A stretch of DNA of 64,000 bases. Origin: Mugil cephalus. Taxonomy: Eukaryota > Chordata > Actinopteri > Mugiliformes > Mugilidae. The DNA lies in the NCBI RefSeq assembly GCF_022458985.1, contig NC_061781.1:21105001-21169000 (forward strand). Reading direction: 5' to 3'. This document shows, in pieces, positions 10,101 to 36,700 of the stretch (its first letter is position 1; each line of letters starts with the position of its first letter). Both the position numbers and the translations under genes were made by a program. Below the pieces are notes generated by a model, which did no database searches, was not told the DNA's origin, and saw only the letters and a list, made by a program, of their open reading frames with translations.

Positions 10101-10601
10101 GCCGATATTGGTAAAAAGAGAAAGGTCCAAATAATGTTGTCATGACAGTAAACCTGCATTTGATTCACTTAATTTTCTTCTGAAATTTTCTAAAAATTCA
10201 TCTTAAGTGGTTCATGATATTTACTGTAAATCTTGATACTATGTGCTTACAAAGGAGTTTTTCAATTCTGATACCATTAAAATATATTAGCAAACAAGTG
10301 TTAAGAGGGTTAATTTGTGGAAATACCAAACTCACAGAGGACTCCGACTATGATGAGGCTAACCAACAGGAAAACACTCAGCAGTCCCAGAGTGACAATG
10401 ACACCTGTACATGAACCCCTCTCAGAAATACTTGGAGCTAAACGGAAAAAAAAACAGTGAAACAGTACAAAAGTATAAAAGAAAATTATAATATGTACAT
10501 ATGTATATAAATATTAGCCTCTCTGTAAGTTTATACTTACCTGTGTGACTCGTTGCATGTTTTGGGCTGACTTGTTTAACGTCGACATCAATCTCCTCCA
10601 T
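7128..10601 (-). CDS. C-type lectin receptor, gene 2
   Basis: Six exons in transcript order: 10541-10601, 10336-10437, 9575-9880, 8712-8854, 7520-7623, 7128-7278. They total 867 nt, 288 aa, with GT-AG junctions. The tail MEEIDVDVKQVSPK has lost the tyrosine seen in the sisters. The membrane segment contains GVIVTLGLLSVFLLVSLII. The stalk exon is the longest of the family (306 nt), with four 14-residue units of the type TEERDLLNTNLTKM; three of them contain an NLT glycosylation sequon. The lectin domain has [33 protein letters not shown] and WNDLSC and ends CERIP-stop. QPD predicts galactose-type specificity. A possible AATAAA lies at 7017-7022. Intron 4 holds a Tc1-like element and a pentamer repeat. 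Confidence 0.9.
7671..8550. mobile_element. Tc1-like element in intron 4 of gene 2 (copy A)
   Basis: Bounded by inverted ends CACTGCCTGG and CAAGGCAGTG, each next to TA. The interior keeps decayed transposase sequence, including 'aaagaatgaggtcagctgac', which also occurs in copies B (18564-21752) and C (28053-30561). All three sit in the same intron of sister genes, so the insertion is older than the duplications. Confidence 0.85.
8571..8630. repeat. ATCTC pentamer tandem repeat
   Basis: Twelve perfect ATCTC units in a row, in intron 4 of gene 2 between the Tc1-like element and exon 4. The following 'ggtgagaggcagggtacacgc' type sequence belongs to a common fish dispersed repeat that is also seen near 52740. 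Confidence 0.95.
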
Positions 10602-10690
10602 GGCTCATGTGGATGCAGATTATTTCCTAAATGATCTCTGTGAACGACTGAAATCTCTGTGGTTTGTAGTTCTTGCTCCTTCTATCTTTT

Positions 10691-10716
10691 TTAAGGAAGT
10701 CACATGCTTGAGACGT
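10691..10716 (-). promoter_or_regulatory. Conserved promoter-proximal element, gene 2
   Basis: Read on the + strand it is TTAAGGAAGTCACATGCTT. It lies about 90 bp upstream of the ATG of gene 2 and recurs at the same place before genes 3, 4, 5 and, more loosely, 6. It combines an ETS-type GGAAGT core with an E-box (CACATG). Confidence 0.6.
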
Positions 10717-11106
10717 GACAAACGTAGTTGGCTGAACAACAAATCACACTGAAAATTATTTTTTCTTGTGATCAACTGTGCGATGGTTCCCTTGAGTTAA
10801 GAAACAGAAGTTGGAATTTCACACTTTTCTAAAAAAAATTCTTGATCTTGATACATGGTGTCCAGTCAAGTTGATGCAATAAGAAAACTCTCGACAACGT
10901 GACTGAGAGACAGAGATATTGTATTCAACGGCAGTAATAGCAGTTAGACACAAAGTGAAGTCAGATCTGGTGGTCTTTTAAAATGTGCAGCTCTTTCTTT
11001 TATATTGTACATACATGCACATACATATTTATGTATAACTACATCTCGTAATTGCTCATCCTGGAAGGCCATTGCCAGGTTTATTGTCAGATACCATACT
11101 CTGGTG

Positions 11107-11215
11107 TTAGGCTTGTTTCTCACAAATCCACTGCATAGAAGTTTGACACAGCAGGTTGTTCCACTCATTGGTGACAGCTTTGATATGAGCTGTCACCAGT
11201 ATCCCCCCAGTGTAT
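11107..11215 (-). pseudogene. Orphan lectin exon 6 relic (gene-6 type)
   Basis: The minus strand matches the terminal exon of gene 6 at both ends: an acceptor-like 'gttag' then an ACTGGGGGG run, and the tail 'cagtggatttgtgagaaac' with stop TAA. The middle, including the QPD region, is deleted. No exons 1-5 accompany it. It lies about 500 bp upstream of gene 2, the same spacing as the intact gene 6 exon 6 has to gene 5. Confidence 0.75.
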
Positions 11216-11698
11216 CTAACAATGAACAAGAGAATCATGAAAGCTGACGTAAACACTCAATACGTTTACATGTAGGTGAAAAAAAAATCTATTACTGAAT
11301 TACTTTTTTTGGGAATAATCACAAAATAAATAATTCAGGGATTTTACTTACTTAAGTGTTGAGATATCCACTTTAGTGAAAGAGGGAGATGTGCATCTAG
11401 AAAGATTTGCAAATTGTATGACTTCATGACCTGACCCATTTACACATTGACCATCCAATGGCATTGCAGGGCTAAACAATAAGACCTAATGACTATGTCC
11501 ATGTACAACTACACAAAGAATTCTCTTCCTTGGAAAAATAGGGTTTAATTTCAACTGAACGAAGAAAAAAAAAAGAAAAAATATGGATAATGAATTTGAA
11601 TGTAACACCTAAGTCATAGATAGAAATACTACTCACGCAGAAATAATAATTATAACTCATTTACATGCAGTAAGCTTTAAACAACATGTACAACAGAG
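11216..11698. other. 3' flank of gene 3
   Basis: Contains the flank signature shared by the minus-strand copies ('ttccttgg' then 'agggtttaattt', near 11530-11560), also present downstream of genes 2, 4 and 5. No gene is seen. Confidence 0.6.
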
Positions 11699-14600
11699 TT
11701 ACAGTATCTTTTCACAAATCCAAAGCAGAGATGACGCACATGGAAGATCATTCCAAGTAGGTTTGCCATCATTTTTGATATGTGCACAGTCTTCTTCACC
11801 ATACTTTGGGATTTCACCTCCGTTGTCAGGTTGATTTGTACTCCAGTAACTGGAAGGTGAGTGAATGACAGAATCACTGTTAATGTTTGACAAATGAATC
11901 ATATAGAAACAGTGTAAATAGTCAAACACATAAGCCAGGGCCGAGGGTGGTTGCTCAGATTGTTTTCTACTAGTTCATCTACATTTCAGTTTTGCAAGAA
12001 TGTTCATTTTTGTGTGGCAGATGAAATTAATAAAAGATTCTCATTGTGGAAAACAACAGACTTACTTCAGAGTCAGTGGAGTCCCATCAACCCATTCCCA
12101 GGTTCCTTCCACTTCTCTGTCATTCAAACCAATCCAATTTGTTTTTTTGATGATCTTAGAGACAAAACCCTGTTCATCATGCAAAAGTGAATTTAAGTGT
12201 AGCACCACAACATAAAAAGCAATGTTACGCATTTACCATGTATGAATGACTACATTTGCAAACACAATAACAAGCACACAGGACCTGTTCTTCATTGCTG
12301 TCTATCACCATCAGATCTGCTCCTCTGTTTCTACAGTCTTGTCTTGCTTCATCCCAGGAACCAGATGCTTCAGAGAGGAAATAACAGGAACAACTGAACA
12401 TTTTCCATCCTTCAGGACATGTTTTCTCTGGAAGAAATATCACACCAGTATTAATATACAGTAATTTCTCCTACTCATCTGTGTTCCTGATCTCATCAAC
12501 CTGCCAAAAAAACTGTTGTACTGGTGGTCATTTGAATATAATTCCATATGGATATAGATAGAAGGTCTCAAAGAAAGATATGTTAAATCACAATGCGGCA
12601 TCCAAAGACTCACTCTGTTTAGACAAACTCTTGCTGGTCTGGAGAAGCTCAGTCAGGTTGTCTCTGAGGGCAGAGAGCTCTGTAGCTGAATCTTGGACTG
12701 AGTTATGGTCTGAAATGAGTAAAGACAAACATCGACCATGTTGTGACAATTCAAATTTCTGCTGGGAAACTTTTGAACCTGTCATAGGTGTGGATGTTAC
12801 TTAGACATACAACAGGCACACACACAAAAACAGTCTAGGAACATGGTACCAGGAGAAAATACCTCGACCAAAACTGAACTTTGTACGTCAACCAGAGGAG
12901 TCGAAGTTGACAGGAAACGTTGATGAAAATTGGAAAGTACTGTATGTGCTGGCCATCGGACTGGACGGCAGCGACAAGTGGAAGATAGCACTGTTGCTAA
13001 CAGTGGCAGGCCGTAGTGCACTAGACATGTACAACACGTTTGTCTTCAGATGACCAAGAAGATAAGTTCAACGTGGTCATGGCAAAATTCGAGGAGTACG
13101 ACACGCCAAGAAAGAATAAGACATATCAGCGATATGTTTTCAGAAACCGTGTTCAGAAAGACTGAACGATGTCTGAAGAGACGATTGAATAGTATGTCAC
13201 AGACCTGAGGCTGAAAAGTCAGTCATGCAACTTCGGCATGTTTTTTTGATTCAGTGATACGTGACCAGATCGTGATTGGTGTACTGGACAATAGAGTGAG
13301 AATGCAACTCTGATGGAATACAGGGAGTGGGAGTTTTTATTTATGATGTTGTCGTCTGGGGCAAAACAAAAGAGGAGCATGATGCAAGGCTGCACAGAGT
13401 CGTCACTCAGGCGCAAAAGTCAGGTTGTCATGCCCTCTGTCCCTACTCCCTAGTGTGTGTGTGTGCGGACTTGATTACAGATGGGAGACTGGATTGGAGA
13501 TCCCTCAGCTGCTGCTAATTAACCCTGGGCATTTAAGTTCTGGAGCCACAGTCAGACTTCCCTGCTTTAGAGTCCACCAACCTGGTCCTGACACAGGTCT
13601 AAAACTTAACAAGAACAAATGCCAATTTGGGGTGAAATAAATAACCCATCTGGGAGAAACTGTCAGAGGCAGTGGTACAGCCAGATTCAGATAAGGTCAG
13701 GGCAATTGCTGAAATGCCTGTACCACAGGACAAAAATGATCTGCAGAGAGCCTTAGGCTTAGTTAAATACTTGGGAAAATTTGTCCCGAACGTCTCAGCT
13801 AACACTAAAGCATTGATAAGTCTGCTAGAGAATAATACAATGTGGCAGTGGATGCCAGAGCATAAGAATGGGAGTGGCTAAAGAACAGTTTAATCAATGA
13901 GCCAGTCCTGAAATTCTATGAGCAGGACAAACCGTTAAAGGTGTCCACAGATGCATCTAAAACCGGCCTAGGACCCGTGCTGCTTCAAAAGCATGACACA
14001 GAGTGGTATCCTGTCACATATGCGTCTCGCACAATGACTAGTGCAGAAAGAAATTACGCACAAATTGAGAAAGAGACATTGGGGGCTGTCTATGGCTGTG
14101 AGACGTTCCATAATTATGTTTATGGTCGACCAGTGACACTGGAAACTGATCATAAACCACTAATAGCAATCTCACAGAAGCCACTGGGTGATGCACCACC
14201 ACGTATTCCACCAACGCTTAATGCTAAGCCTTCAGAAATGTGATGTTAACTTTGACTTCACTTTAAACGCAAGGACTATCGGTTAGTCATGGACTGTCAT
14301 TCCAACTACCCAGAATTCACATGTCTTAGTGACACAACTGCAGAGAAAGTTGTGACACACACAAAAGCAATCTTTGCACGCCATGGGATTCCTGTGACTG
14401 TGATAAGTGACAATGGTCCACAATTCTCGAGCCAATGCTTTGAGGACTTTGCAGGAAAGTATGGTTTTGAGCATGTGACCTTGAGCCCTCTCTATCCGTA
14501 ATCGAATGCATTAGCAGAGAAGGGAGTGCAGATAGTCAAGTGTATTCTGAAAAAAAAAAAGCTGCAGAAAATGCAGAAGATCCACACCTTGCCATCCTGA

Positions 14601-16275
14601 ACTACAGGGCATCACCACTTGAAAATGGGCTTTCACCAGCCGAAATGCTCATGAAAAGAAAGCTCAGGACCAGGCTTCCAGCAGCCACATACCAGAAGGA
14701 AAAGTATGTGACAACGCGTCCAGATGTGAGACAGATTGAACTGTACAACAGAGCAACTAAGGCTCTGGGCCCACTCTCACAGGAGGACATTGTGAGGGTG
14801 AGGTGTGATGGACAGCGGGGACCACTAGCTAAGGTGGTCAAGGAGACAACACCTAGATCATATGAAGTCATCACAGAGCATGGGACACAAATGAGGCGGA
14901 ACAGAAGGCATCTGCTCAAAGTGCCTCAGAGAGAAATCATGGACAATTACACAAATGACATGTCAGACATCTCAGACCAAGCCTGTTCTGAGACAGACAA
15001 ACACACACCAACTGATGTCACACAGGGTTATAGGCCGAAAAGACAGATTGTGAAACCAAAGAGACTGAAGAGAAATAAAAAAATAAATTAATAAAATAAA
15101 CAAAAGCGGAAGAGAAACAGAGTGTAAACAGCACACACATGTTAAGGGTGTTATGTTCTAAACAGTTAAAGTGCCAGAAAGGAAATTGTGTTAAGATGAA
15201 GCAATTGAATGTTAGTATATTGTGAATTTGATTTAAAAGGAATTTATTTCTCTTGTATGTACAAGAAGACTTTGAAAAAAAGGAAGATGTATTGAGATGT
15301 AATGATCAGTGTTACCACTAGTTAGCACTAGGCACTTACCTGAAGTGTATGCAACACGGAAGTGTGGTTGTTTGCAGTATACATTGATGTTGAACTACAT
15401 GCGTGAGTACGTCTTGTCAGTACAGGAACAACTCAAAAAACACGAAGTGGTCTCCAAATGCACTAGATCCTAAACTGATAAAGTATCTGTGGGATGATCC
15501 ACACAGCCCCCTCCCCTGAACCCATAGGAACCAAAGTCCCCCACTAACAACATTCTGAGCCACATCAGAGGGATAGTAGAATAACATGAAATGATTTCAT
15601 TTATCTCCATAAATTAATGTTATCTCCTCCTGTAAGTCAATGTACACTGATTCAACAGAACTCGTAAACTGGTTTATGTAGCCTTTGAAATATCTAAACT
15701 CAAAGGCAGAATTATAACTGTGTTTAACTTTATAGCATCACTGGATTCAGTTAGCACAGCTGTTTTCAATAGAAACCCAAGGTAAATTCAAACGGAGTTG
15801 TGGTGTGTTTAGAAGAGTATTCACTTCTATTTGTTTTCAGAGTGCAGAGGAGTTAGGCTTCTACAAATGACAACAAAAAACTTTTCAGCCTAAAAGACTG
15901 AGACTTTTTGTTCGATGAACTCTGTGCAGCACACAACGCCTGTACCGCGTCATGTCCCTATAGGAAACAATAAACCAAAAATGTGGTGATGCCATTAAAA
16001 ATCTATTACCAAATAACTTGTGTAAACCAAACTCACAGAAGACACCAAAGACGATGAGTCCAACCAATAGGAAAACATTCAGCAGTCCCAGAAAGATACT
16101 AACACCTAAACATGAACTCCTCTTGGAGCCCCTTGGACCTGAACAGAGAAAACAACAACAATAATGAAAAATGATAATATGCACCTATTCATCTCTCAGT
16201 CAGTTTATTCTTACCTGAGTGATTTGTTGAATGTTTTGGGTTGACAGATCTGACATTGACATAAATACCATCCAT
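11699..16275 (-). CDS. C-type lectin receptor, gene 3 (short stalk)
   Basis: Six exons in transcript order: 16215-16275, 16037-16138, 12614-12709, 12285-12427, 12066-12169, 11699-11849. They total 657 nt, 218 aa. The tail MDGIYVNVRSVNPK has the YxN motif. The membrane segment is [20 protein letters not shown]. The stalk exon is only 96 nt: it reads DHNSVQDSATEL...LLQTSK then jumps to SLSKQ, so all heptad units are gone in frame. The lectin domain has KTCPEGWKMFSCSCYF, WIGLND, QPDNGG, GEEDC and WNDLPC and ends CEKIL-stop. Intron 2 is more than 3 kb and carries a Gypsy element nested in a Tc1-like remnant. The frame is intact, so a short-necked receptor is possible. Pairing of the distal exons 1-2 with exons 3-6 rests on phase and order. 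Confidence 0.85.
12752..12812 (-). mobile_element. Tc1-like remnant, left piece split by Gypsy
   Basis: The phrase 'ctgctgggaaacttttg' followed by 'gtggatgttacttagacat' is the reverse complement of sequence in the Tc1-derived repeats at 17342-17753 and 26917-27394. The matching remainder resumes at about 15435, after the Gypsy element. Confidence 0.65.
12813..15434 (+). mobile_element. Degenerate Ty3/Gypsy retrotransposon in intron 2 of gene 3
   Basis: Plus-strand decayed gag-pol order: a gag-like region (about 12850-13320), a reverse-transcriptase remnant (about 13590-13830), RNase H (13930-14245), integrase core (14289-14530) and integrase C-terminus (14540-15091). It has stops, frameshifts and deletions and cannot be functional as read. 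A possible 3' LTR starts near 15149 (TGTTATGTTC) after a purine-rich stretch. No matching 5' LTR is seen, so the element is truncated. It lies antisense to gene 3. Confidence 0.85.
13930..15091 (+). pseudogene. Gypsy pol remnant (RNase H and integrase)
   Basis: The RNase H segment shows STDASKTGLG, a YASRTMTSAERNY-type motif and ETDHKPL. The integrase core segment shows ISDNGPQFSS, consistent with the second catalytic aspartate region. The C-terminal part has NYRASPLENGLSPAEMLM, typical of Gypsy integrases. Several frames and stop codons separate the parts, including a stop just before the region that would hold the last acidic residue. Confidence 0.85.
15435..15570 (-). mobile_element. Tc1-like remnant, right piece
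   Basis: Reverse complement of the block near 17440-17540 and 27060-27160 (for example 'ctcccctgaacccatagga' against 'tcctatgggttgaggggag'). With the piece at 12752-12812 it shows that the Gypsy element landed inside an older Tc1 derivative. Confidence 0.65.
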
Positions 16276-16362
16276 TGCTCGCAAGGACGCAGGTGATTTC
16301 CTAGATGCTAATGTCTGTGAACTGAAACTTCTGTGGGTTTCAGTTGTTCTCTTTCTTTCTTT

Positions 16363-16389
16363 TTTTAAGGAAGTCACATGCTTCAGAGG
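16363..16389 (-). promoter_or_regulatory. Conserved promoter-proximal element, gene 3
   Basis: TTTTAAGGAAGTCACATGCT, as read on the + strand, lies about 90 bp upstream of the ATG of gene 3. It is the same ETS-core plus E-box arrangement as in genes 2, 4 and 5. Confidence 0.6.
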
Positions 16390-16429
16390 TAATGAATGTA
16401 GGTGGCTGACATTACCACTGAATTTGGTT

Positions 16430-16740
16430 ATTTATTTATTTTAGCCTTTATTTTACCAGCTCGAAGCCTGGCCAAGACAGCAGCTTAGGAAAGTTGTGAC
16501 AATTAGGAACAAACAGGAACTCACACAACAACAGAAATGCAATACATAGAAGATACAAAACAGGAATGGGACTCAGGATTTACATTAAAACAAGAAGAAG
16601 TGTTATATATAGGTGCTCCAAGGTCTCTCACACAGGTTCTCCAAGATGCAAGGGTGATGAGTTCCTTTAATCTTTAAGTTTTCTGCAGTGAGTTCCAAGC
16701 AGTAGATGGACTTTACTTAAAAAAAAGTGTTAACCAAATT
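16430..16740. repeat. Dispersed repeat upstream of gene 3
   Basis: Starts in a TTTATT-rich stretch followed by 'agcctttattttaccag' and 'agcctggccaagacagcag', a form common to fish dispersed repeats. A short reverse copy of its end is near 52970-53010. It accounts for the extra distance between gene 3 and its upstream exon-6 relic. Confidence 0.45.
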
Positions 16741-17104
16741 CAGAGTGGTATAAGTACAAATTGTTGGAAACTAAACAGTTGCTTTGGGTCTTAGAATGAA
16801 ATGGTTATCTTGAGAAAAGTAACAAAAGTCAGAAGTTAGCACTTTTCTGAAAAATATTCTTGATCTTGATAGACTGTGTACAGTCTATAGATGTTTATCT
16901 CAAGATCTGTTAAATGCTACCATGCTAACAAAACAAACAAGCAGGAATAATGCAGCTACACGTAAAGTGACGTCACATCTTCTGGTCGTTAGCCACTATA
17001 GTCTGTTACATCTGTTTAAAATGTGTTACTGCACACTTTCCAATTTCATTTATATCCATACAATGCATGTACAAACATATTTGTGTATAATTACAACTGC
17101 TTAG

Positions 17105-17225
17105 ACTGGAAAGGCATGTCCAAGTTTATTGTCTGATCACATACACCGGTGTTGGACTTTTTTACTCACAAATCCATTGGATAAAAGTTTCTCATGTCAA
17201 ATGTCATGAAAACCTGCAATGGGCA
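17105..17225 (-). pseudogene. Orphan lectin exon 6 relic upstream of gene 3
   Basis: The reverse strand keeps the end of a gene-6-type terminal exon ('caatggatttgtgag' followed by the diverged stop region), then drifts. No accompanying exons are seen. After subtracting the inserted repeat at 16430-16740 it lies about 0.5 kb upstream of gene 3. Confidence 0.6.
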
Positions 17226-17341
17226 CAAGTGGAGATAAGAGCAGCCTGAATAAAGATTCCTCTCCCCTTAAGTCTAAATAGAACAGACAAAAGACCAGTG
17301 AAAGTATTTTAATGGCAGATGATAAAACACATTTACTGCAT

Positions 17342-17753
17342 ATACACCAACCTAGCATAACATTACGACCACCTTCCTAATATTGTGTGAGTCTCCCTTG
17401 TGGATCCAAAACAGTTGTGACTCATCAGAGAATGAACATGGGCCTTTGGGTCCTATGGGTTGAGGGGAGGGGCCTCTGTGGATCATCTCCCAGATAGTTG
17501 ATAAGTTTGGGATACAGTGAATTTGGAGGCCAGGTCAACACCTTGTGCTGTTCCACATATTTTTTGAGTTGGGATGGCTGCTGCCATCAGGGAGTGTCAT
17601 TTCTATGGGGTGGGCGCTGGGGGGTGCTAACATCCACATGAATGAATGCCAGGTCCAAAAGTTTCCCAGCAGAACACTGAATTGTCATCAGACGCTCAAC
17701 GTTATTTACTTCTCCTGTCAGTGGTCATAATATTATGGCTGGACAGTGTTTGT
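17342..17753. mobile_element. Internally deleted Tc1-like element, 3' of gene 4
   Basis: The left end has 'gcataacattacgaccacc' and the right end 'gtggtcataatattatggc', which are inverted versions of each other and match the TIRs of a common fish Tc1-like family. The interior keeps pieces of transposase coding sequence ('aggccaggtcaacacctt'), but no open frame. Sister copies lie at 26917-27394, 41730-41996 and 56793-57330. This one is about 195 bp beyond the stop of gene 4, the same place as the copy beyond gene 5. Confidence 0.8.
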
Positions 17754-17948
17754 ACACATACAGCCAAAGAATTAATTATCTTCCTTGGGAAAACAGGGTT
17801 TAATTACAAAGAAAGAAAGAAAAGAGCAGCGGATAATTCATTTAAATGCAACACTTAAGTCGTAGATAGAAATACCAGTCATGCAGAAGTTAAAAATGTA
17901 ACTGATTTACATGCAGTATATAAACTTTAAACAACGCGTACAACAGAG

Positions 17949-20900
17949 TTATGGTATTCTTTCACAGACCCACTGCAGAGATGATGTACATGAAAGATCA
18001 TTCCAAGAAGTGCTGTCATCACTTCTGATATGAACGCAGTTTTCTTCACCATACTTTGGGATTCCACCTCCATTATCAGGTTGATTTGTTCTCCAGTATC
18101 TAGAGGGTGAGTAAACGACGGAATCACTGCACTGTTTATCTTTGACAAATGAATCATCTGGAAACAATGTAAACAGTCAAACACACACATCAGTGTGAAA
18201 TGCTTGTTGAAAAGTTTCTCTAACCCCAGATACCCAAAGTCTTCATTGTCCAGCTACAATGTTGTTTTTCCTTGGCTCTATCTACAATTGAGAGAAATAT
18301 CCTCTGGAAAAAAAGTTCTTCTGTCTCTATGTGCCCAAAATCTCTGTTGTTGAGCTACAATGTTATTTATCCTTTGACGAAACTGAATAAAAGATAAAAA
18401 CAATAGACTTACTTCAGAGTCAGTGGAGTCCCATCAACCCATTTCCAGATTCCTTCATTATCTCTGTCATTCAAACCAATCCAAGTTGGTCTCTTGGTAA
18501 AGTCCACGAGGAATTTCTGTTCAAAAGGAAGAAAAACATGTTTAACTTTTAAACCACAATCTACACTGCCTGGTCAAAAAAAAAAAAAAAAAAAAAAAGT
18601 CTCCACCTGGATTTTACTAAGTAAATAGGTACGAGCATCATATTGGATAATTACTCCATGGGTGATTATTTTTCAACTGGCAACATGTTATTTAACCCCA
18701 ACTGATGCAATGAGAAGCTTGTGAATCTGTTTAAGAAGGGTCAAATCATTGGCATGATCAGGCAGAGAAAACATCTAAGGAGATTGAAGCAGAAAGTTGT
18801 CAAATTAGGTTAAAAACTGTACAACACTCTATCCATCCATCCATCCATCCATCCATCCATCTAAGGACCATGTTCGATTGTGAAAGCAAGAGCTTCTGCA
18901 CATGTACAATGTGAAGGGAACTCAAAGGACTGGGACCGAACTGATGTTTAGCCATAAGAAAACCATTAATCAGTGAGGCTAACCAGATAAAAAGGTTTCA
19001 ATTTGCTAGGGAAGATTGGACTCTGGAGAAATGGAAGAAGGTCATGTGGTCTGATAAGTCCACATTCACCCTGTTCCAGACTGATCCTGCAGCTGCTCAG
19101 CTCTGGGTTCAGCAACATTATGTGACCAAAGAATGAGGTCAGCAGACAACCTGAATATACTGAATGACCTGGTTATTCCATCAGTGGATTTTTTTTCTTC
19201 TCTGATGCCACAGGCATATTCCAAAATGACAATGCCAGGATTCCTCTGGCTCAAAGAGTGGTTCAGGGAGCATGGATGGATTGGCCACCCCAAAGCCCAG
19301 ACCTGAACCCCATTGAGAATCTTTGGGATGTACTGGAGAACGCTTTGAACGGTGGTCAGACTCCCCCATCATCAGTACAAGATCTTGGTGAAAAATGAAT
19401 GCAACACTGTCTCATCTTCGTCATTTATCCGGGTCCAGGTAGCGGGGGCAGCAGCTTCAGGAGGGAGGTCCAGATGGCCCTCTCCCTGGCCACTTCCACC
19501 AGCTCCTCTGGAGGAATCCCAGGCGCTCCCAAGCCAGACGGGAGATGTAATCCCTCCATGCGACCCTGATTCCTCTTGTCCGAACCACCTCAACTGACTC
19601 CTCTCGACGTGGAGGAGCAGCGGTTCTACTCTGAGCTCTTCCCGAGAGTCCGAGCTCCTTAACCTGTCTCTAAGTCTGAGGCCAGCCACCCTACGGAGGA
19701 AACTCATTTCGGCCGCTTGTATCCGTGATCTTGTTCTTTCACCCAAAGTTGATGACCATACGTGAGGGTTGGAACATAGATTGACCGGTAAATTGAGAGC
19801 TTTGCCTTTCTGATTCGCTCTCTTCACCACGACAGACTGGTTAAGCGCCCGTAACTCCGTAACTACTTGAACTCCACTTGAGGCAGGAATTCCTCCTCGA
19901 CCTGGAGCAAGCAATCCACCCTTTTCTGACTGAGAACCATGGCCTCAGACTTGAAAGTGCTGATCTTCATTCCAGTCGCTTCACACTCGGCTACAAACCG
20001 CCCCAGCAAGAGCTGGAAGTCGCAGTTCGATGAAGCTAAGAGGACCGCATCATCTGCAAAAAGCAGCGATGAGATCCTCTGATCACCGAACTCGACACCC
20101 TCCACCTCCACCAATTCTGTCCATTAAGGTTATGAACAGAACCGGTGACAAAGGCCCACATTGTTTCTCTTTGATCTGAGGTTCCACTATTGATCAGAAC
20201 CTCTTTTTTTCAGCACCCTTGCATAGACTTTCCCAGGGAGGCTGAGGAGTGTGATGCCCCTATAGTTGGAACACAGCCTCTAGTCCCCTTTCTTAAAGAT
20301 GGGAACCACCATCCCACTCTGCCACTCCAGAGGCACTGCCCCAGATGTCCATGCAATGTTGCAGAGGCATGTCAACTAAGACAGCCTTACCACATCCGGA
20401 GCCTTGAGATGCCCAGGGCAGATGTCATCCTCTCATGGGGCTCTACCGTCGGGTCGTTACTTCACCACATCAGCGACTTCTGCCCCAGAGATAGGATGGC
20501 CCAACCCCAGGCCCGCCGGCTCTGTTTCCCCTAAGGAATACATGTTAGTGGGATTGAGGAGCTGCTCAAAGTATTTCTTCCCAGCAGACCCTCACTATTC
20601 GTTTGGGCCTACCAGGTCCGCATGGCAAAATCCCCTGCCATCTGATCCAACTCACCACCAGGTGGTGATCAGATGACAGCTCTGCTCCCCTCTTCACCCG
20701 AGTGTCCAGATCATACGTTCGCAGGTCAGATGATATGACGACAAAGTCAGTCATCGACCTACGACATAGGCCGTCATGGTGCCAAGAGTACCAGTGATCA
20801 ACCTTATGTTCAAACATGGTGTTAGTTATAGACAGACTGTAACTTGCACAGAAGTCCAATAACTGAACACCACTCGGGTCCAGATCAGGCAAGCCGTTCC

Positions 20901-24577: not shown

Positions 24578-24629
<52 letters not shown>

Positions 24630-24723: not shown

Positions 24724-24803
24724 GGCTCATTCGAGTGCAGATTATTTCCTAAATGATCTCTGAACAACTGAAACCCCTGTGGTTTGTAGTTCTTGCACGT
24801 TCT

Positions 24804-25084: not shown

Positions 25085-26100
25085 GTTAACTTTACACTGC
25101 ATCATCGTCCACTCCACACTTGAACCTTAGTTCACCTAGCTGTACACACTTAACCCATCTGCTTGAACTGAGGACAATGATGGAGTCTGATGACTGGACT
25201 GCCAACGACAGCACCAGCAAATCTCAAGAAACACAATCAAGCTACAACATTCAGGTAACATTTTCTACAACTATGTCTATAACATTATTATCATTAGCAT
25301 GAGATTAGCCTGGCTGTTTAAAGAGCAGCTCCCACAAGAAGGTGTAGCTAATGTTAGCTAGCTATCAGTGGATGTAGCAGGGGGAACAAGGTAAAGTGAA
25401 GACAAGAACAGCCTAAATGAAGATTTTTCTCCCCTTAAATCTGAAGAGAACAGAAAAAGACCAGTGAAAGTATTTTATTGTAATGGCAGATGACAAAAAA
25501 CACATTTACTATAAACTTGAATGAGCTATCACTGGATGTAGCAGGGGGCACATAAGGCTAAAGTAGCACAATTTTGTGTTTGACTAATGTTCGTCAACTT
25601 AGGTAGCAAATATCACAAATTAAACATGCGGTGCAGAGTTGACAAAGTGGGGCTAATGAGACAGGCTAGTATAGTGGAAGGGGACAAATTGTTGGGTAAA
25701 CAGACCCGTTCACAGTCTGTAAACAGTGTGATGTTACTTGAGGGGTGGGGCTTAACTGGAGGCAAAACATCTCAAACACTATAACTTGTAAACACCAGTT
25801 AGCATATTTCAACAGACTGTTTTTGGCAAGTATGGATGAGGAAAATGCATATTCTGGCTGATGGGACTATATTCACTGACCCCTACACTCTCACTCGCCG
25901 GATGGGTGATTTGACCAAAGGAGGACACAGAGGGACGAAGTCTGGTCTGTCTTTATCAAGTGAAGCCTCTCCAACAAAGATATTACAAGAGGTAAGTGGA
26001 GCCACTGTAGAGAGTAACATAGTAAATGCAACTTCACCTTGGACACCTATGAAACATGCAACTAACGTTGCATTAACTAGCAGTTAGCATTAGCTTTGAC
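25085..26100. other. Unexplained insertion between gene 4 and its exon-6 relic
   Basis: Two plus-strand exon-like stretches end in donor-like sites: one near 25180-25254 (MESDDWTANDSTSKSQE, then CAG|GTAACA) and one near 25832-25990 (containing ADGTIFTDPYTLTRRMGD, then GAG|GTAAGT). Copies of 'tggatgtagcagggggcac'-type sequence recur at 25370 and 25536. I do not recognise a family. It may be a decayed DNA transposon with introns, or chance. A segment near 25435-25515 is shared with 17268-17345 and 26762-26850. Confidence 0.3.
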
Positions 26101-26359: not shown

Positions 26360-26600
26360 TTGCCTGACCACATACGCTGGTGTTGGGCTATTTTATCACA
26401 AATCTACTGAATAGAAGTTACTCATGTGAGGTAGTTCCACTCATGTTTTTTAATTTTGGGCTGTTTTCTGTTTTCTGCGACAAAAGTGACAGAAATTATT
26501 TGAGCAAAGCCAACAGTGCGAACCCACTCATTAGTCTATGTTCTGTCTTGTTCACATTAACTTGACACTGATAAAGCTATCAGTCAGACTATTGCTGCGT
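26360..26600 (-). pseudogene. Orphan lectin exon 6 relic upstream of gene 4
   Basis: The minus strand keeps a worn gene-6-type exon-6 end ('agtagatttgtgataaaa' replacing the usual Trp-Ile-Cys-Glu region) and then a flank that is matched in reverse by 51062-51290 ('ctatgttctgtcttg' and 'agtgacagaaat'). There is no open frame. Confidence 0.6.
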
Positions 26601-26916
26601 TCACATACACACTATTATTAATTTCAGTGACAATCAGAATAACAATCAGTCAGCCAGTTGCTATGGGGTGGGGGGTGTCTGGTCTGGTCTTGGCAGGTGC
26701 TGCATGTCTACGTAACATCCACAGTTAGTGGAGATAAGAACGGCCTAAATAAAGATTCTTTCCCCTTAAATCTAAATAGAACAGAAAAAAGACCAGTGAA
26801 AGTATGTTATTGCAATGGCAGATGATACAACACATTTACTATAAACAACAGCTACATAAAGATATTCAGGGACTTGACAAAATTCTTTGCTAGATCTCAA
26901 ATACACAGAGCTGCAT

Positions 26917-27394
26917 ATACACCAATCTAGCATAACATTACGACCACCTTCCTAATATTGTGTGAGTCTCCCTTGTGGATCCAAAACAGTTGTGACTCAT
27001 CAGAGAATGAATGGGCCTTCTGAAGGTGCCCTGTGGTGTCTGGAAATAGTATGTTGTTAGTGGGGGCCTTTGGGTCCTATGGGTTGAGGGGAGGGGCCTC
27101 TGTGGATCATCTTCTAGATACTTGATCAGTTTGGGATCCAGTAAATTTGGAAGCCAGGTCAACACCTTGTGCTTTACTACGTGTTTTTTGAGTTGGGATG
27201 GCTGCTGCCATCAGGGGGTGTCATTGCTATTGGGTGGGAGATGGGGGTGTCTGGTCTAGTCTAGATGGGTGCTAACATCCACATGAATGAATGCCAGGTC
27301 CAAAAGTTTCCCAGCAGAGCAGTGAACTATCACAAGATGCTCAATGTTATTTACTTCTCCTGTCAGTGGTCATAATGTTATGGCTGGTCGGTGT
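26917..27394. mobile_element. Internally deleted Tc1-like element, 3' of gene 5
   Basis: Same family and same relative site (about 195 bp past the stop codon) as the element at 17342-17753, with 'gcataacattacgaccacc' and 'gtggtcataatgttatggc' ends. The shared position implies insertion before genes 4 and 5 separated. It is slightly longer than its sister because it keeps the part around 27015-27060. Confidence 0.8.
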
Positions 27395-27588: not shown

Positions 27589-30500
27589 TTATGGTATCTT
27601 TTCACAGACCCACAGCAGAGATGACGCACATGAAAGATCATTCCAAGAAGTGCTGTCATCACTTCTGATATGAACACAATCTTCTTTACCCAACTCTGGG
27701 ATGCCACCTCCATTATCAGGTTGTTTTGTATTCCAGTATCTGTAAGGTGAGTGAACAACAAAATCACGGCACGGTCTATCTATCATACATATCAGGGTGA
27801 AATGCTCGTTGAAAAGCTACAATGTTATTTTTCTTGGCTGTATCTGCGATTGAGAGAAATATCCTCTGGAAGTTGAATAAAAGATAAAAACAGTAGACTC
27901 ACTTCAGAGTCAGTGGAGTCCCATCAACCCATTTCCAGATTCCTTCATTGTCTTTGTCATTCAAACCAATCCAAGTTGGTCTCTTGGTAAAGTCCTCGAG
28001 GAACCTCTGTTCAAAAGGAAGAAAAACATGTTTACTTTCAAACCACAATCTACACTGCCTGGTCAAAAAAAAAAAGTCTGCTCTGCATCAAATACTCAAT
28101 GTCTTCACACAGTTTAGTCTATTTTCTGGTTATAAAATTAACTGGGATAAATCCCACCTCATTCCAAAAAATGCCCCTGCAAAATCTTTTACCTTACCAG
28201 TCATTCAACATATTCAGTGGCATCACTCAACATTTGCATACCTGGGCATAATTGTAACCAATTTCCCTGATATATCACATGCAAATTACAATAAGATTTA
28301 AACAGAAATTGAATTGGACATTCAGAGGTGGTCTAATCTGATATAATATAACTGCAGGGCAGAATTGCGATACTGAAAATGAATGTTCTCGGCCGATGGA
28401 ATTTTCTGTTTTCTATGATGCCTATGCCCCCACCACCTATTTCGATGATCTACAATCCCTCACCACTAAATTCATATGGAGTGATAAAACAGCTCGCATT
28501 CGCCTATGCATGTTACAACGACCAAAACACTCTGGAGGCTTGACAGTACCTGACTTTAAACTATACTACTGGTCATTTTAAATAAAGCAATTGACAATTT
28601 GGTACAATGAGAATGTTGTCACACCCTGGACCCTAGATCTGTGTGTAGAAAGTTTGGACCAATCATAGGCAACTCCTTGAAAATCTGGTCCAGAAATACA
28701 TGGGATGTAATGTAAATCTTTGTGACCGCTCCCTTGTTTGGTACAGCTACAATTTATTGCAGCATACTGGTCCATGTTTTAATGATAGTTGGGCTTCTGG
28801 AGGAATTAATACTCTCAAAGACCTGTATGACAGAAATGGTTTGATTTCACTCCAAGAGCTTAAAGAATGCTATTCTTTCCCTGGGTTTCCTTGGTTCTTG
28901 TATTTCTAGCTGAGGTCGGCAATCCGTGCCCATGGAGTTCCATGGGATTCACCTTTACTATTCTCATCCGCTGGACACTTGGATTTCCTCTTAAACACCT
29001 TCTACTGGATTATTATCCATTATTTACAATGACCTACTTTCTAAAAATGGCAAACCTCTGGGAGTGATCAGTTCCTGGAATCGTGAACTTGGGGGTCTTG
29101 GTTGTAATCTCGTCAAAGAAACCAGCACATCAACTTATCCATTGTAAGTTTGTACATAAATTTTATGCCACACCATAGAGACGTTTACAATGAAACTGAC
29201 AGATGATCCCAACTGTACAAAATGTGATCAGAACAATGTTTGCGCATGTCTTCATGTTTTCTGGGAATGTCCCTCTGCGTGTAGCCTTTGGTTTAAAGTG
29301 CATAGGTGCCTTGAAAATATTTTAGGGGTCCCTATCCCGATGCCTCCCCCTCTATTTCTATTCAATGATGACTCCATTCTTAGTGGCAATACCAGATTGG
29401 AACAGAGGAAAATTATATTTGCAGGACTGACTGCTGCTAAGAAAACCATAATACACTCATGGTTTTCCCCAGACACCCCATCAGCAAAAGAATGGCTAAA
29501 ACGCTTTAGAAAGGTCACTGGCTGTCATACACAAAGCACGAGCATCTACAGTGCAGGCCTGGGACGCCCTTATTGGTTGTCTTTCTGACATAGCTTTACT
29601 CGCTCGCATATAAGGTGTTACTGTGAATTATACTGTCTTTGGGTATCTGTATTGTCTACATTCCCCCTTTTTTTCTTACTAAAATCTTTAATGGCAAGGC
29701 AATGGCATTCTGTTTGTAATGTAATATTCAACTAAGCAAAAAAAAAATTAAAAATCCTGATTGATGCTGATCTGTGATCACTTAAATATTAAAGGACTAT
29801 GTTCAGTCATGAAAGTAAAAGCATTTCCTTACGTGCAATGTGAGGGAAACGCAAGGGACTGGGACTTAACAGCTTTGTAGCCTTAAGAACACCACTAGTC
29901 AGTGAGGCTAACCAGAAAAAAGGCTTCAGTTTTCTAGGGTCATAGTGATTGGACTCTGGAGCAATGGAAGAAGGTCATGTGGTCTAATGAGTCGAGAATG
30001 ACCCTGTTCCAGATTGAGAGGGAATCAAGGTAAAAAGAGAGGCAGATGAAATGATGCCCTCATCATGTCTAGTGTCTACTGTACAAGCCTATGGGTCAGT
30101 GCTATGATCTGGGGTTGCTGAGTTGTTCAAGGTCAAGGTTCAGCAACATTATGTGACCAAAGAATGAGGTCAGCTGACTACCTGAATATACTGAATGACC
30201 TGGTTATTCCATCAATTGATTTTTTTCTTCTCTGATGCCATGGACATATTCTAAGATGACAATGCCAGGATTCATCTGGCTCAAATTATGAAAGAGTGGT
30301 TCAGTTAGCATGGATGGATTAGCCACCACAGAGCCCAGACCTGAACCCCACTGAGAACCTTTGGGATGTACTGGAGAACACTTTGAACAGTGGTCAGACT
30401 CCCCCATCATCAGTACAAGATGTTGGTGAAAAAACAATGCAACACTGGATGGAAATAAATCTCGCAACATTGCAGAAATTTCTCATCGAAAGAATGATGC

Positions 30501-31324
30501 AACAAAAGAAGCTAAAGGTTGTCTAATGAAATATTGTGACCTTATTTTCAGCTAGGCAGTGTAGTATGTATTTCAATACAATCATAAAATATTTATAATT
30601 ACATTTTATTTCAATTAATGTGTTAAATATGGTACTCTATGTCTGTAGTCAGACAGGCTTCTAGCTATTCAGTACCTGTTCTTTAGGACTGTCTATTACC
30701 ACCAGATCTGCTCCTCTGTTTCTACAGTCCTGTCTGCCTTCAACCCAGGAACCAAACTCTTCAGAGAGGAAATAACAGGAACAACGGAACATTTTCCATC
30801 CTGCTGGACATGTTTTCTCTAGAAGTAAAAAAACATAAAAGAGGAGACATTATAAATCAACCATTATGGACCTGTGAAGTTACCTGTACCTTGCCACACT
30901 TCAATGTCCTTTCCATGCTTGAATGATAAAGAATTCCTAAATCCATGGACAGCTACAACAAAATTTAAAACAATGTCTGTACATCATCTGTACAGAAATG
31001 GTATGCAGTACAAATTTGTATTCAGTATATAGCATTAACTTGAATAAGGACTGGAAAGCAACTGAAATATCTGTTGGTGTCAATATATGCCGTACTGTAA
31101 CTGTACTAACTGTAGTTTGAATCTAATGATTTTTCAAGTTGATATTTTGACTTTTCCTTCCATTGACAAATTATTTCACCAGAAGGAAACAAGATTTTAA
31201 AATTACCTTAAATTACAAGCTCACTTGTCTTTTGAAGGTTTGAAACCAATGGCCGCCCATTTGACCATCTGTTGCTTCCTTGAGCGATCAAGGGATTTAG
31301 AAACCTGATACAGTAAATTTGTGT

Positions 31325-31361
<37 letters not shown>

Positions 31362-33235
31362 CTTTATTTATATAGCACATTTAAAAACCACAGAGGAAGC
31401 CAAAGTGCTTTACATTGGGACATAAAATAGGTTTAAGATTAAGATAAAAGGCATAAAAAACACAAACACAGAATCACTTCAAAAACAGACAAACAAAACA
31501 AGCAAAGAAAACAGAATAAAGGAACAAACAAGCTCACTGCATGTGCTTTTTAGCCAATGACAGACAAACATTAAGGTAAGCTAAAGGAGAGGGAGTAAAA
31601 GTGCTTTTTTTAGAAGAGATTTAAAAACAGGAAGCGAGGAGGCCTGTGTGACGTTTAAAGGGAGGTCATTCCAAAGTTTGGGTGCAGCAACTGCGAATGC
31701 TCTGTCACCTCTGAGCTTCAGCCTTGTTTTAGGGATTGTCATCACACAAAGCTATCATTTGGTTTAAAAAATAATGAAAATAAAATTAATTTAAATGAGA
31801 AGATGAGGTGGGAACAAAGTGCAAAATAAACATTAAAAATAGGCAACCCTGCCGAAGAGATGACATCAATCTATTGGTGTCTCCTTTTAGACTGAACAGA
31901 CCCTACAGGCGCTTTAGGCGGCCCCTAAAAATGGACTACACACTCCTATGGCTATGTTAAATTACAAGGGTGATGTAATCACTTCTTCAGTTTCTTAGTA
32001 AAACACATGTGCACCATTGAACAACCAGTGAATCACGAGATATTTAAAGACTCACTCCGATTAAGTGAAGCCTGAAGCTTTTCCATCTTTTCAGTCATTT
32101 CATTGAGGGTGGCGTTCAGCAGGTCTCTCTCTTTAGTCATGGTGGAAAGTTTGCCGTTGTTGGTCTGTAGGAGCTCAGTCAGGTTGTCTTTTATGGCCGA
32201 GAGCTCTGCAGCTGAATCATGGACTGAGTTATGGTCTAAAATAAAATATTAAAAAAAGATACAGATTTCAGAAACACAGATGGAATGACCTGCAGAAAAA
32301 AAAAAAAAAAAAAAAACATTCCGTAACCAAGTTCAGTAAATTTGATTTAACTTACTCTGTTGCCATAAGCCTATGTGAGCTCCTATTTTAATTCTGTTTA
32401 CACCCATCGGCCACTTTATAAAGTACACCTTGCTGGACCCCCTTTTGCCTTCAGAACTCCTTTAATTCTTCAGAGATTTTGGTGGATGGATCCATGCTTT
32501 CATGTTGTTGAAAATCCCAGTATATCAGCAGTTTCTGAAATACTCAGACCAGCCCGTCTGGCACCAACAACCAGACCACGTCCAAAGTCACTAAAATCCT
32601 CTTTCTTCTCCATTCTGATGCTCGGTTTGAACTTCAGCAAGTTGTCATTATCACCTCTACATGCCTAAATGCATTGAATTGCAGCAAAGTGATTGGCTGG
32701 TTAGCTATTCGTGTTAACAAGCAATTGAGCAGGTGTACCTAATAAAGTGGCAAGTGAGTGTATCGACTTGACAGAAAACGCTTTGGGACTGGCTTAGGTA
32801 GTCCAAAAATATCTAAACTCAAAAGCAGAAGTGTAACTGGGTTTGATTTCATAGCATCACTGGACTGAAACAATGAAAAATTAAAATATATTAGCAAACA
32901 GGTGTTAGAAGGTTAATTTGTGAAAAAAAAAAAACTCACAGAGGACTCCGACTACGATGAGACCAACCAACAGGAAAAGACTCAACAGTCCCAGAAAGAC
33001 AGTGACACCTGAACATGAACTCCTTTCAGAAATCCTTGGAGCTGAACAGAAAAAAACTGAAACAGTACAAAAGTAGAAAACGATAGCATGTACACACACA
33101 CGCACACACACGCGCACACACACATATATATATATACATTAGCCTCTCTGTAAATTTATTCTTACCTGTGTGATTCGTTGCATGTTTTGGTTTGACAGAT
33201 CTGACTTGTTTAACGTTGACATAGATCTCCTCCAT
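27589..33235 (-). CDS. C-type lectin receptor, gene 5
   Basis: Six exons in transcript order: 33166-33235, 32940-33041, 32056-32235, 30676-30818, 27903-28006, 27589-27739. They total 750 nt, 249 aa. The tail MEEIYVNVKQVRSVKPK has YVNV. The membrane segment is [20 protein letters not shown]. The stalk exon (180 nt) has one unit, TKERDLLNATLNEM, with an NAT sequon. The lectin domain has [33 protein letters not shown] and WNDLSC and ends CEKIP-stop. The calcium-ligand Glu is kept, while the residue before it is Lys in place of the usual Glu. Intron 4 holds a Tc1-like element with a nested L1-like LINE; intron 3 holds a repeat starting with (ATCA)n. Its upstream neighbour on the same strand is gene 6, whose stop is about 490 bp away. 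Confidence 0.9.
28053..30561. mobile_element. Tc1-like element in intron 4 of gene 5 (copy C), interrupted by an L1-like LINE
   Basis: Ends CACTGCCTGG and CTAGGCAGTG beside TA. The interior after the LINE (from about 29756) follows copies A and B ('gatgctgatctgtgatcac', 'tcagtacaagatgttgg'). It keeps a decayed transposase end in the + direction. Confidence 0.85.
28079..29755 (+). mobile_element. 5'-truncated L1-like LINE inserted in copy C
   Basis: Plus-strand remnants in order: the end of RT (near 28110-28300, with FSGYKINWDKSHLIP and FAYLGIIVTN), a segment at 28396-28581 (TTKFIWSDKTARIRL, QRPKHSGGLTVPDF) and the C-terminal region at 29190-29588 (CTKCDQNNVCACLHVFWECP, the CCHC-like motif of L1 ORF2). 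It ends in an A-rich tail before the Tc1 sequence resumes. 5' truncation and A-rich tail fit target-primed reverse transcription. Confidence 0.85.
31320..31740. repeat. Dispersed repeat starting with (ATCA)n
   Basis: About nine ATCA units, then 'ctttatttatatagcacat' and 'ccaaagtgctttacattgg', a very common fish dispersed sequence, ending near 'agccttgttttagggatt'. It lies in intron 3 of gene 5. A shorter piece of the same type starts near 63925. Confidence 0.7.
32401..32760 (-). mobile_element. Deleted Tc1-like element (sister of 4372-5197)
   Basis: The right end 'aataaagtggcaagtgagtg' and the left 'ggccactttataaagtacac' are inverted and match the ends of the element at 4372-5197. The minus strand retains the first part of transposase sequence; most of the rest is deleted. 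It lies in intron 2 of gene 5 and is flanked by TA. Confidence 0.8.
33091..33136. repeat. CA/TA microsatellite
   Basis: Imperfect CA run with CG interruptions, then TA units, in intron 1 of gene 5. Confidence 0.9.
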
Positions 33236-33313
33236 GGCTCATTCAGATGCAGATTATTTTCTAAATGATCTCTGTGAACTGAAACCTCTGTGGCTTACAG
33301 TTCTTGCTCTTTC

Positions 33314-33340
33314 TTTTTTTAAGGAAGTCACATGCTTCAG
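33314..33340 (-). promoter_or_regulatory. Conserved promoter-proximal element, gene 5
   Basis: TTTTAAGGAAGTCACATGCT on the + strand, about 80 bp upstream of the ATG of gene 5. It is nearly identical to the elements of genes 2 and 3. Confidence 0.6.
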
Positions 33341-33723
33341 ACGTGACAAAAGCACTTGTTTGAACATCAAATCACACTGACGATGATTTTTAATTTTTTT
33401 TTGATCAACTGGTTCCCTTGATTTAAGAAACAGAAGTCGAAAGTTCACACTTTTACATGTGTACATGTACAGTCAAGTCGATGCAATAAGAAAACTCTTC
33501 ACAACATGACTGAGAGACAGAGATATTGTATTCAACGGCAGAAATAGCAGTTACACACAAAGTGAAGAAGTCAGATCTGGTGGTCTTTTAAAATGTGTAA
33601 CTCTTTCTTTTATTCATACAATACGTGTACATACATGTTTATGCATAACTACATACAAATTCTCATAACTGCTTACACTGGAAGGGCACTGCCAGGTTTA
33701 TTGTCAGATACCATACTTTGGTG

Positions 33724-36700
33724 TTAGGCTTGTTTCTCACAAATCCACTGCACAGAAGTTTGACACGGCAGGTCGTTCCACTCACTGGTGACAGCTCTGA
33801 TATGAGCGCAGTCCTCTTCGGTCAAGGGGGCATCTTTACCTCCGTTATCAGGCTGGTCTTCCCCCCAGTACCTAACAATGAACAAGTGAATCATGAAAGC
33901 TGATGTAAATGCTCAGTAGTACGTCGTTTACATGCACGTAAAAAAAATTAATTATCCAATTAAGACGTATAGATAATGTAAATGGAATTTTGGGCAAATT
34001 CAACGGTTTGAAGCCACTTTTTAATCTCTACTCTGTCCGGCTCACATAAACACCAATAAAGCTTATTTTATTATCTGTGTGTCTGTAATCACACAGGACA
34101 GAAACATGTCTGCAACGTTTTTTAGTTGTAGAGAGTTGACAGTCGCTTCGTTTTAAAAGATAAATGAAACCAGACTCGATGTGGGCAGCACAACTGAAAA
34201 CATGGGTCAGTGTATATTCATTGGTGTCAAGAAAGTTTAAGGGGTATTTTTTTAATACATGGAGGCCCACTGTGGTCCATATTTATCTGTCATGATTGAT
34301 GTTTTGGGACACGTAAACACATATGTCATATTTTATTTATTTTTATTTTTTTAAATTAACACCCATGTAAAATGCAGCTAGTAATAAGTGTAGAATTAAT
34401 ACTGGGTGTGGGTCGACCCTAAGAAAAAACTCTAATCCATTGGCATTACTTATAAATACACTTAGACGCTCTAAAAGGCAGATATTTAGTTTTGTATCTT
34501 GCAGCAGAATTTATTTTTTACCATTGATACTATTTTTTTTTCTTTACAGGAAGCTGAGGGCTTGTGGTTGGTTGCCTTGACATTTGTGGGGTGGTTTATT
34601 TTTATCTTTTATTTTTTTGGTCTATCTCCTAATCAAACGACAGTTCAACCACCCCTCTGTTTTAGATGAGTTGCTAATCACAGGCAGCGTTAATTGCTAG
34701 AATCCTCTTTCATGGATGAATAATTTTTATTTAAACCAATTTAAAGGATTTGTTCATACCTTAGAGATAATGGAGTTCCATCAACCCATTTCCAGGTATC
34801 TTCTCCTCCTCTGTCATTCAAACCAATCCAAGCTGCTGCCTTGGTTAATGTAGAGACAGAGGTCTGTTCAAAATGAAGAAAAACATAATTGAGTTCTGAA
34901 ACATAATCTCATACCTATTAAAATAATCTACAGGGAAAAACTATACCTGTTCTTCAGGGCTGTCTATCACCACCAGATCTGCTCCTCTGTTTCTGCAGTC
35001 CTGTCTGGCTTCATCCCAGGAACCAGATGCTTCAGAGAGGAAGTAACAGGTGCAATTGAACATTTTCCATCCTGCAGGACACGTTTTCTCTGGAAGAAAC
35101 GTCAAAGAAGAGACATTACAGGAAAGCTGGCCTGGAGTCACTCTGTTGGGAAGTGGATACGCTCCAGCAAAGACCTGCCGGGCCACTCGAAAAAAAGGAA
35201 ATCCAAGTGACTCACATCCTAATAGATTTTTTTTTTTTTTTTACTTTATTCAGACCATGTGGGAAGTTCGAGTGTGCAGTAGCTTGTACACAAACATACA
35301 CATCAGCATAACACACCAACACGTAAGGAAATATGTAGGAGACTGTACTAACATGTATTTGAGTGTAAAACTATGTACAGTTGACCAATTTACGAGTGAG
35401 TATTTAAGCGTTTAAACAGTGGCGTTGTACAGTCTGTTGACTGTGGGAACAAAGGAGCTCCTGAACCTCTCAGTGCTGCAGCGTAGTCATGGATTAAGAC
35501 CGGTCGCCCAACCTTGGGAACGAGAACCAGACATGATGTTTTCCTCAGTGCTAGATGCAGTCGCTTCAGTTCACCTTCCAACCCCTCTGTTGTGAGGGAG
35601 AGGGGGTGGTGAGGTGTGAAAAGCTAAGTCATTGCACCTTCTGCAAGAGACGTGGGGGGGGGGGGGGGGGGGGGGGGGGGGTGAAATGGGGAGCGGCACC
35701 GGCGTTGGGGGTGTGGAGGTGTGAGACGGAAGACATGGTGATGAGCTGGAGGAGGGGGAGGTAATGGTGGTAATGGACGTTAATAGCTAGAAATTAATAG
35801 CGCCATGTTTACTCTGGTTTTGTTGAACCTTTCTGGTCATTTACTAATTACCGTCGTTCAATTTCCAAAAAACAAGAGATTTTAGTAATAGTTGCAAATG
35901 TTCACGCACTCCACTTTTCATCTCATGGCGGTGGTATTCTTTGCAGACCTAAACCAGTGCGTACAGTGGTCAACTACTCAGCCAAAAAAGATTTTGCAAG
36001 CCAGCTCAAGATCGAATTATAAAAGCTGGTCTTAGTCACCCACCTACACCCACCCACAGCTCCTTCCTGCCTGCCTGTGGCTTGTAACCAAGTAGTGGGG
36101 GATTGCCAAAGAAAACAATGAGAACCTGCCGACTGACAAATTTTGAAAGCTAGCAAGTATTCTGTAGCTGCTCACATCAGTTTGAAGTGATGTCATCTGA
36201 GATCTTGAGTTAATTATGTCATTTCTTTGCCGTCTACTAAAGGTTGGGCCCTCAGCCTCAGATGAAGAAGTATAAAGCGCTACAACGTCCACATGAGGTC
36301 GTGCTGGTTGAATATTGCACCACATGGACTCTCACTCAGAAGAAACGAGAACTGCAGAGTGCCTTTCATTTTCTGTATTTTCAGAAAGTCTTGTCCGTCA
36401 CATAAAAGGCAAAGTGTAAGATTAATTTAAGAATAAGACAAGCCGGGCCGCAATGTCCCAGTCGAGAGCAGTTCAGGGTTTCAGTTGTTCAGTTATGAAT
36501 CCCCCCTTATGTTCATAGATCTTGAGACAAATATCTTCCAAACTTTCTACAACCATCCTTGATTTCTGGCTTGTTTTCTTGAGGAACCACACCTTTTCTT
36601 AAGATAATGACATAAATAAAGCTGAAGACAAGCTAAGCGTATTGAGCAAATAAACTAAATTTCAGAAGGTGACGTTATGTGGCGTTTGTTGTAGTTATTG

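Follow-up and report, generated by a model that had tools for sequence, protein, structure and literature searches.

Relic terminal exons between tandem C-type lectin genes of Mugil cephalus point to repeated capture of a neighbouring gene's tail

The window analysed here, a stretch of 64,000 nucleotides from Mugil cephalus (contig NC_061781.1, positions 21,105,001 to 21,169,000), contains seven C-type lectin genes, each with recognisable exons 4, 5 and 6, and four degraded, isolated copies of a last exon (R1, R2, R3 and R51) that most resemble exon 6 of gene 6. These relics are most likely non-functional fragments carried along in head-to-tail duplication of the lectin genes, with at least two captures of a tail exon and re-duplication of the older junctions as a whole. 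Four observations carry this reading: the gene-6 type of the relics, the collinearity of R1 with the living gene 5/gene 6 junction, stubs of intron 5 in three of the four relics, and the lack of a detectable exon 5 or 4 beside them; the order of the captures we infer.

Results

Four relics of a gene-6-type exon 6

A profile of the seven intact exons 6, scanned across the window with nhmmer --max, recovered all seven and four weaker copies: R1 (11087-11240, minus strand, 56.5 bits, E 5e-17), R51 (51208-51282, plus strand, 29.4 bits, E 9e-9), R3 (26369-26479, minus strand, 26.9 bits, E 5e-8) and R2 (17139-17201, minus strand, 13.2 bits, E 9e-4). All four lie above the top score in 100 order-2 Markov shuffles of the window (10.6 bits), which were run without --max, unlike the window scan, and leave R2 a thin margin on score alone; chance similarity is ruled out as the source of the relics by these scores. 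R2 is further backed by its alignment to R51 (83.7%, 104 columns) and, together with its 3′ flank, to R1 (76.5%, 507 columns). Identity to the gene 6 coding sequence is 88.4% for R1 (138 columns), 72.5% for R2 (51 columns), 66.2% for R3 (80 columns) and 68.4% for R51 (79 columns), compared with 50.6-60.0% to the six other intact exons. Gene 6 is thus the best of seven for every relic, which rules out an unrelated lectin as their source; R2 and R3 are nearer still to R51 than to gene 6. Each relic lies downstream of the exon 6 of a same-strand gene (R1 after gene 3, R2 after gene 4, R3 after gene 5, R51 after gene 7), and R1, R2 and R3 have the same orientation as the gene they precede and correspond to the 3′ end of the upstream neighbour's gene type.

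Exon-4 and exon-5 profiles found only the seven genes below E 0.1 in the window, other matches being weak (E 0.16 or worse; 6909-6995, 2391-2425, 30381-30426 and 19343-19388), and neither exon was detected beside R1, R2, R3 or R51, where 51, 50, 48 and 42 of 200 shuffles, respectively, reach at least that score. The first-pass annotation, made from the sequence alone, had described worn gene-6-type exon 6 copies without other exons upstream of genes 2, 3 and 4, and this is borne out by the profiles and shuffles; neither a closer unrelated lectin nor matching sequence through exons 5 and 4, the two outcomes it had named as contrary, was found. Its limits for R1 (11107-11215) were exact. R2 and R3 are relics as described, with smaller extents than the 17105-17225 and 26360-26600 assigned to them: supported exon in the former ends at 17201, with a repeat shared with 26727-26841 from 17224, and about 26475-26639 of the latter is intron. 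The annotated spacing also holds: the gene 6 stop lies about 490 bp from the gene 5 ATG (33235), the R1 stop about 506 bp (annotated as about 505 bp) from the gene 2 ATG (10601), and the relic upstream of gene 3 at about 0.5 kb once the inserted repeat (16418-16743) is removed.

R1 and the living gene 5/gene 6 junction

Exon 6 of gene 6 comprises 145 nt without and 148 nt with its stop codon. R1 and its flanks (10276-11302) form one block with the gene 5/gene 6 junction (32880-33962; 985 columns, 88.9%), within which identity is 92.4% over 33727-33898 (exon plus 27 intron bases), 90.6% over the gene 6 3′ flank and 88.0% over the gene 5 upstream region, so that collinearity extends into the duplicated gene's promoter region. 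R1 retains the reading frame, the acceptor AG and the native stop; the QPDNGG stretch is gone, and the 27 codons that can be compared with gene 6 differ by 5 amino-acid changes and 0 silent changes. Its 36-residue reading matches no Pfam family up to E 1. From the alignments we conclude that R1 is a later copy of gene 6's living tail.

R2, R3 and R51 share lesions, probably those of one dead exon

R2, R3 and R51 contain stops. All three have TGA at a conserved cysteine, for which gene 6, R1 and the six other genes have TGT, and in all three CAA takes the place of the TAA stop seen in gene 6 and R1. Among these five sequences, 8 sites separate gene 6 and R1 from R2, R3 and R51, against 2, 2 and 1 for other two-three splits. 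The three shortest of the 15 parsimony trees (70, 70 and 71 steps; next tree 77) hold this split, which has 99.8% parsimony bootstrap support over 104 gap-free sites, and FastTree with the six other exons as outgroup gave 0.897 for R2, R3 and R51 together, 0.728 for gene 6 with R1 and 0.698 for R3 with R51. The distance from the splice acceptor to the TGAGTGG stretch is about 31-32 bases in R3 and R51, compared with 87 in gene 6, and these two relics can be aligned over 278 columns, stub included (79.9%). Because of the common stop at the cysteine codon, the lost stop codon and the grouping apart from gene 6 and R1, R2, R3 and R51 probably descend from one exon that was already dead.

Intron-5 stubs end at differing points

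R1, R3 and R51 continue into sequence of gene 6 intron 5 with scores reached by 0 of 300 shuffles in each case, and this intron sequence rules out a processed (retro-) pseudogene. The stub common to R3 and R51 matches gene 6 at 33989-34063 (E 4.9e-9), and that of R51 is alignable to 34116. The R1 stub reaches about 33962-33975, with nothing significant beside R1 beyond this point: continuation past 11302 into the gene 6 intron is unsupported (score reached by 35 of 300 shuffles), and for 11303-11495 the window offers no further copy up to E 1. R2 is cut inside the exon at 17201, adjoining the repeat that begins at 17224, and the sequence beyond it shows no supported continuation (46 of 300 shuffles). 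Three of the four relics thus end within the donor intron 5, at differing points. The single breakpoint in gene 6 intron 5 that the first-pass annotation proposed does not fit these ends (R1 about 33962-33975, R3 34063, R51 34116, R2 in the exon), and its further proposal, that every copy took a fresh tail, fails on the lesions and grouping that R2, R3 and R51 share and that R1 and gene 6 lack.

Transposon copies and repeats at the junctions

Between genes 3 and 4 and between genes 4 and 5 the same transposon, putatively Tc1/mariner-like, is found at the same point, ending at the left edge of the gene 4 and gene 5 units. Because of this common position the two junctions look like copies of one junction. 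The leftward match of genes 4 and 5 continues past their 3′ flanks to 17228 and 26727, near R2 and R3 (90.5 and 91.6%), and takes in the transposon. Terminal inverted repeats are present in the transposon copies at 56796-57321 and 26.9 kb, and none are reported at 17.3 kb. On the side of the transposon that faces the relic there is a repeat of about 115 bp (17224-17338, 26727-26841), which recurs upstream of R51 (49740-49844); its further occurrence at 25392-25511 makes it weaker evidence for copied junctions. Neither transposon nor repeat is found at the junction between genes 2 and 3. R2 is collinear with the promoter-side flank up to an insertion with inverted repeats (16418-16443 and 16718-16743, 81% complementary). 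R3 lies about 1.6 kb from the gene 4 ATG (24723), and 1.5 kb of other sequence stands between it and the gene 4 flank.

Genes 2 and 3 lose their homology to the other units at the left-edge point where the transposon ends, and the left edge of gene 3 resembles an empty TA site, as judged by eye. That breaks left by transposon excision seeded the repeated duplications that captured tail exons is a doubtful conjecture.

At 41728-42050 a further transposon copy is followed, at 41992-42050, by about 50 bases like the 3′ flank of genes 2-5 (flank profile E 0.27); this is perhaps the trace of another, lost unit upstream of gene 6, whose left edge may likewise have been the transposon end. A large repeat (51355-52130) directly after R51 is common to 19425-20106 inside gene 4 and partly to 39968-40303.

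Mosaic units

Ungapped identity over chained blocks is highest for units 4-5 (89.1%), followed by 2-5 (88.1%), 2-4 (86.2%), 3-5 (83.7%), 3-4 (82.5%) and 2-3 (80.6%). In the 5′ block gene 2 is closer to gene 5 (88.9%) than gene 4 is (84.7%), while in the part spanning exon 5 to the left flank identity is 90.0-94.9% for gene 4-gene 5 and 83.9-91.0% for gene 2-gene 5. Exchange between units, by unequal exchange or gene conversion, may account for gene 2 being nearest to gene 5 at its 5′ but not its 3′ end.

Other matches were seen within the window. The 256 bases of 4368-4623 are 92.6% identical to 32509-32764 in opposite orientation, above the average of any unit pair. Self-matches overlap at 9607-9860 and include matches to 46296-46567 on the opposite strand; they hint at a stalk exon repeated in tandem. 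Left of gene 2, a minus-strand stretch (5192-6082) with a promoter/exon-1-like part (5955-6082, E 2e-4) and an intron-2-like part (5192-5429) is a possible remnant of a minus-strand gene. Four pieces within 53358-54798 resemble the interior of gene 6 (35797-38473), in the same orientation (68-89% identical).

The intact genes

The intact genes are putatively CD209-like. A Pfam scan covered genes 5 and 6, whose joined lectin domains matched Lectin_C (PF00059; E 4.6e-24 and 4.7e-23). Mannose-receptor-type proteins come first among relatives of gene 6 with solved structures (best 60 of 236 sequences), which include CLEC4 proteins and CD209/DC-SIGN. No Rfam family matched the window at gathering score (0 matches). 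Feature positions are listed in Table 1.

Table 1 Lectin genes, relic exons and junction features in the window.
Feature	Position	Strand	Basis
Gene 1		+	
Gene 2, start codon	10601	-	
Gene 2 upstream region, collinear with gene 5 upstream region	10602..11106	-	alignment
R1, gene-6-type exon 6 relic, 109 nt with stop codon	11107..11215	-	profile and alignment
R1 intron-5 stub, matches gene 6 33872 to about 33962	11216..11302	-	alignment
Gene 3, start codon	16275	-	
Insertion between gene 3 and R2	16418..16743	.	26-bp inverted repeats
R2, last part of gene-6-type exon 6, 5′ side cut	17139..17201	-	profile and alignment
Transposon copy, left edge of unit 4	17336..17745	-	
Gene 4, start codon	24723	-	
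R3, shortened gene-6-type exon 6 relic	26369..26474	-	profile and alignment
R3 intron-5 stub	26475..26639	-	alignment and profile
Transposon copy, left edge of unit 5, terminal inverted repeats	26911..27389	-	
Gene 5, start codon	33235	-	
Gene 5 upstream region, equal to gene 6 3′ flank	33236..33723	-	alignment with gene 2 upstream region
Gene 6, intact exon 6 with stop codon (living counterpart)	33724..33871	-	exon-6 profile
Gene 6, start codon	39474	-	
Gene 7, start codon	45501	+	
R51 intron-5 stub	51021..51176	+	alignment and profile
R51, fourth relic, downstream of gene 7, missed by the first-pass annotation	51177..51282	+	profile and alignment

Discussion

Gene 6 coding sequence ends about 490 bp before the start of gene 5, so that duplication of a gene with its promoter would copy the tail of the upstream gene as well. 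An old capture of this kind would have placed a gene-6-type tail at a unit boundary, where the exon gained the stop at the cysteine codon and lost its own stop codon. Re-duplication of this dead junction would then have given R2 and R3 as well as R51, which lies behind gene 7 on the opposite strand, with the left-edge transposon copied along with the junctions between genes 3 and 4 and between genes 4 and 5. A later copy, with a different end in intron 5, would have placed the living gene 5/gene 6 junction beside gene 2, with R1 as its trace. The first-pass annotation had taken a relic of this kind as a direct marker for the duplication boundary; it would mark an old boundary, and not the edge of each later duplication, R2 and R3 apparently having been carried along.

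Several points weigh against this history. The relic alignments are short (51-138 coding columns), R2 carries a frameshift, and few sites underlie the rooting of the two groups, R2, R3 and R51 (0.897) and gene 6 with R1 (0.728). Over 33899-33975 (71 columns) the R1 stub drops to 71.8% identity, a gapped R1 alignment can be forced to 34020, so that the R1 edge is not sharp, and 11303-11495 may hide a later insertion or deletion. As promoter or exon 1 after R51, only weak plus-strand matches were obtained (52361-52409, E 0.64; 56486-56518, E 0.31). One gene 4-gene 5 intron block is only 81.4% identical, making the mosaic less simple than a two-part one, and the comparisons include no outgroup genome.

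All four relics being of gene-6 type, with three ending in intron 5, would also be expected from a single capture with one intron-5 breakpoint, of which all junctions are copies, and the signs of exchange between units lend some room to the accompanying proposal that gene conversion, with the gene 5/gene 6 junction as donor, later renewed R1. We consider this unlikely: the intron-5 ends of R1 and of R3 and R51 differ, and the junction between genes 2 and 3 lacks the transposon and repeat of the other two and holds instead 11303-11495, unique in the window. It is distinctly improbable that at each relic a complete gene-6-type gene once stood between the present genes and lost all its other exons by deletion. 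R51, with no following gene, and the presence of other dead gene pieces in the window (e.g. 5192-6082, 53358-54798) would suit such remnants; against them stand the undetected exons 5 and 4 beside all four relics, the collinearity of R1 with the gene 5/gene 6 junction (88.9%) up to its intron-5 end, and the lesions common to R2, R3 and R51.

A working role, either as an alternative last exon of the preceding gene (as R1 might be for gene 3) or as promoter DNA for the next gene, could account for the acceptor AG, frame and native stop kept in R1, yet appears very improbable given its 5 amino-acid changes without a silent one, the loss of QPDNGG, the absence of a Pfam match up to E 1 and the stops in R2, R3 and R51; moreover, the upstream DNA of R1 (88.0-90.6% between genes 2 and 5) is conserved no more than other gene 2-gene 5 blocks (83.9-93.7%). 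Spread of the relics by a transposon, to which the repeats adjoining R2, R3 and R51 might point, is hardly credible, since R1 and R2 run on into promoter-side flank and the inverted repeats belong to elements beside the relics and do not enclose them.

Under repeated capture with re-duplication of old junctions, events in this array can be ordered from the relics: tails would have been captured in two generations, units would later have exchanged sequence, and one copy lies on the opposite strand. The fragment of a gene found where two tandem units meet can then represent an old junction that was copied, rather than the limit of each duplication. The relics are products of ordinary birth and death in a tandem array, and the carrying of tails is itself well known. 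According to the portion consulted of a review (PMC3449122), a duplication that takes in part of each of two neighbouring genes leaves behind a fragment broken within an intron; compared with such partial or chimeric gene duplicates, no fusion gene is evident here, and the fragment seems dead and was apparently copied again. Expanded group II (DC-SIGN-like) lectin genes are also found in fish clusters elsewhere, as in Fugu with four in one cluster (PMC514892, in the part consulted); relic exons between genes are not mentioned in that part, the word pseudogene occurring 0 times in its text, and the titles and abstract openings listed by literature searches contain no mention of the present relics. 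A close precedent is the human RCCX module with its STK19B and TNXA gene fragments, likewise a tandem unit with a fragment of a neighbouring gene at its boundary. According to the consulted part of PMC8362596, STK19B, directly upstream of C4B, consists of only 914 bases from the STK19 3′ end. In RCCX the fragment comes from a gene with no relation to the duplicated ones, and people differ in the number of units; in the present array both the donor and the host are lectin genes, and three of the four relics look old.

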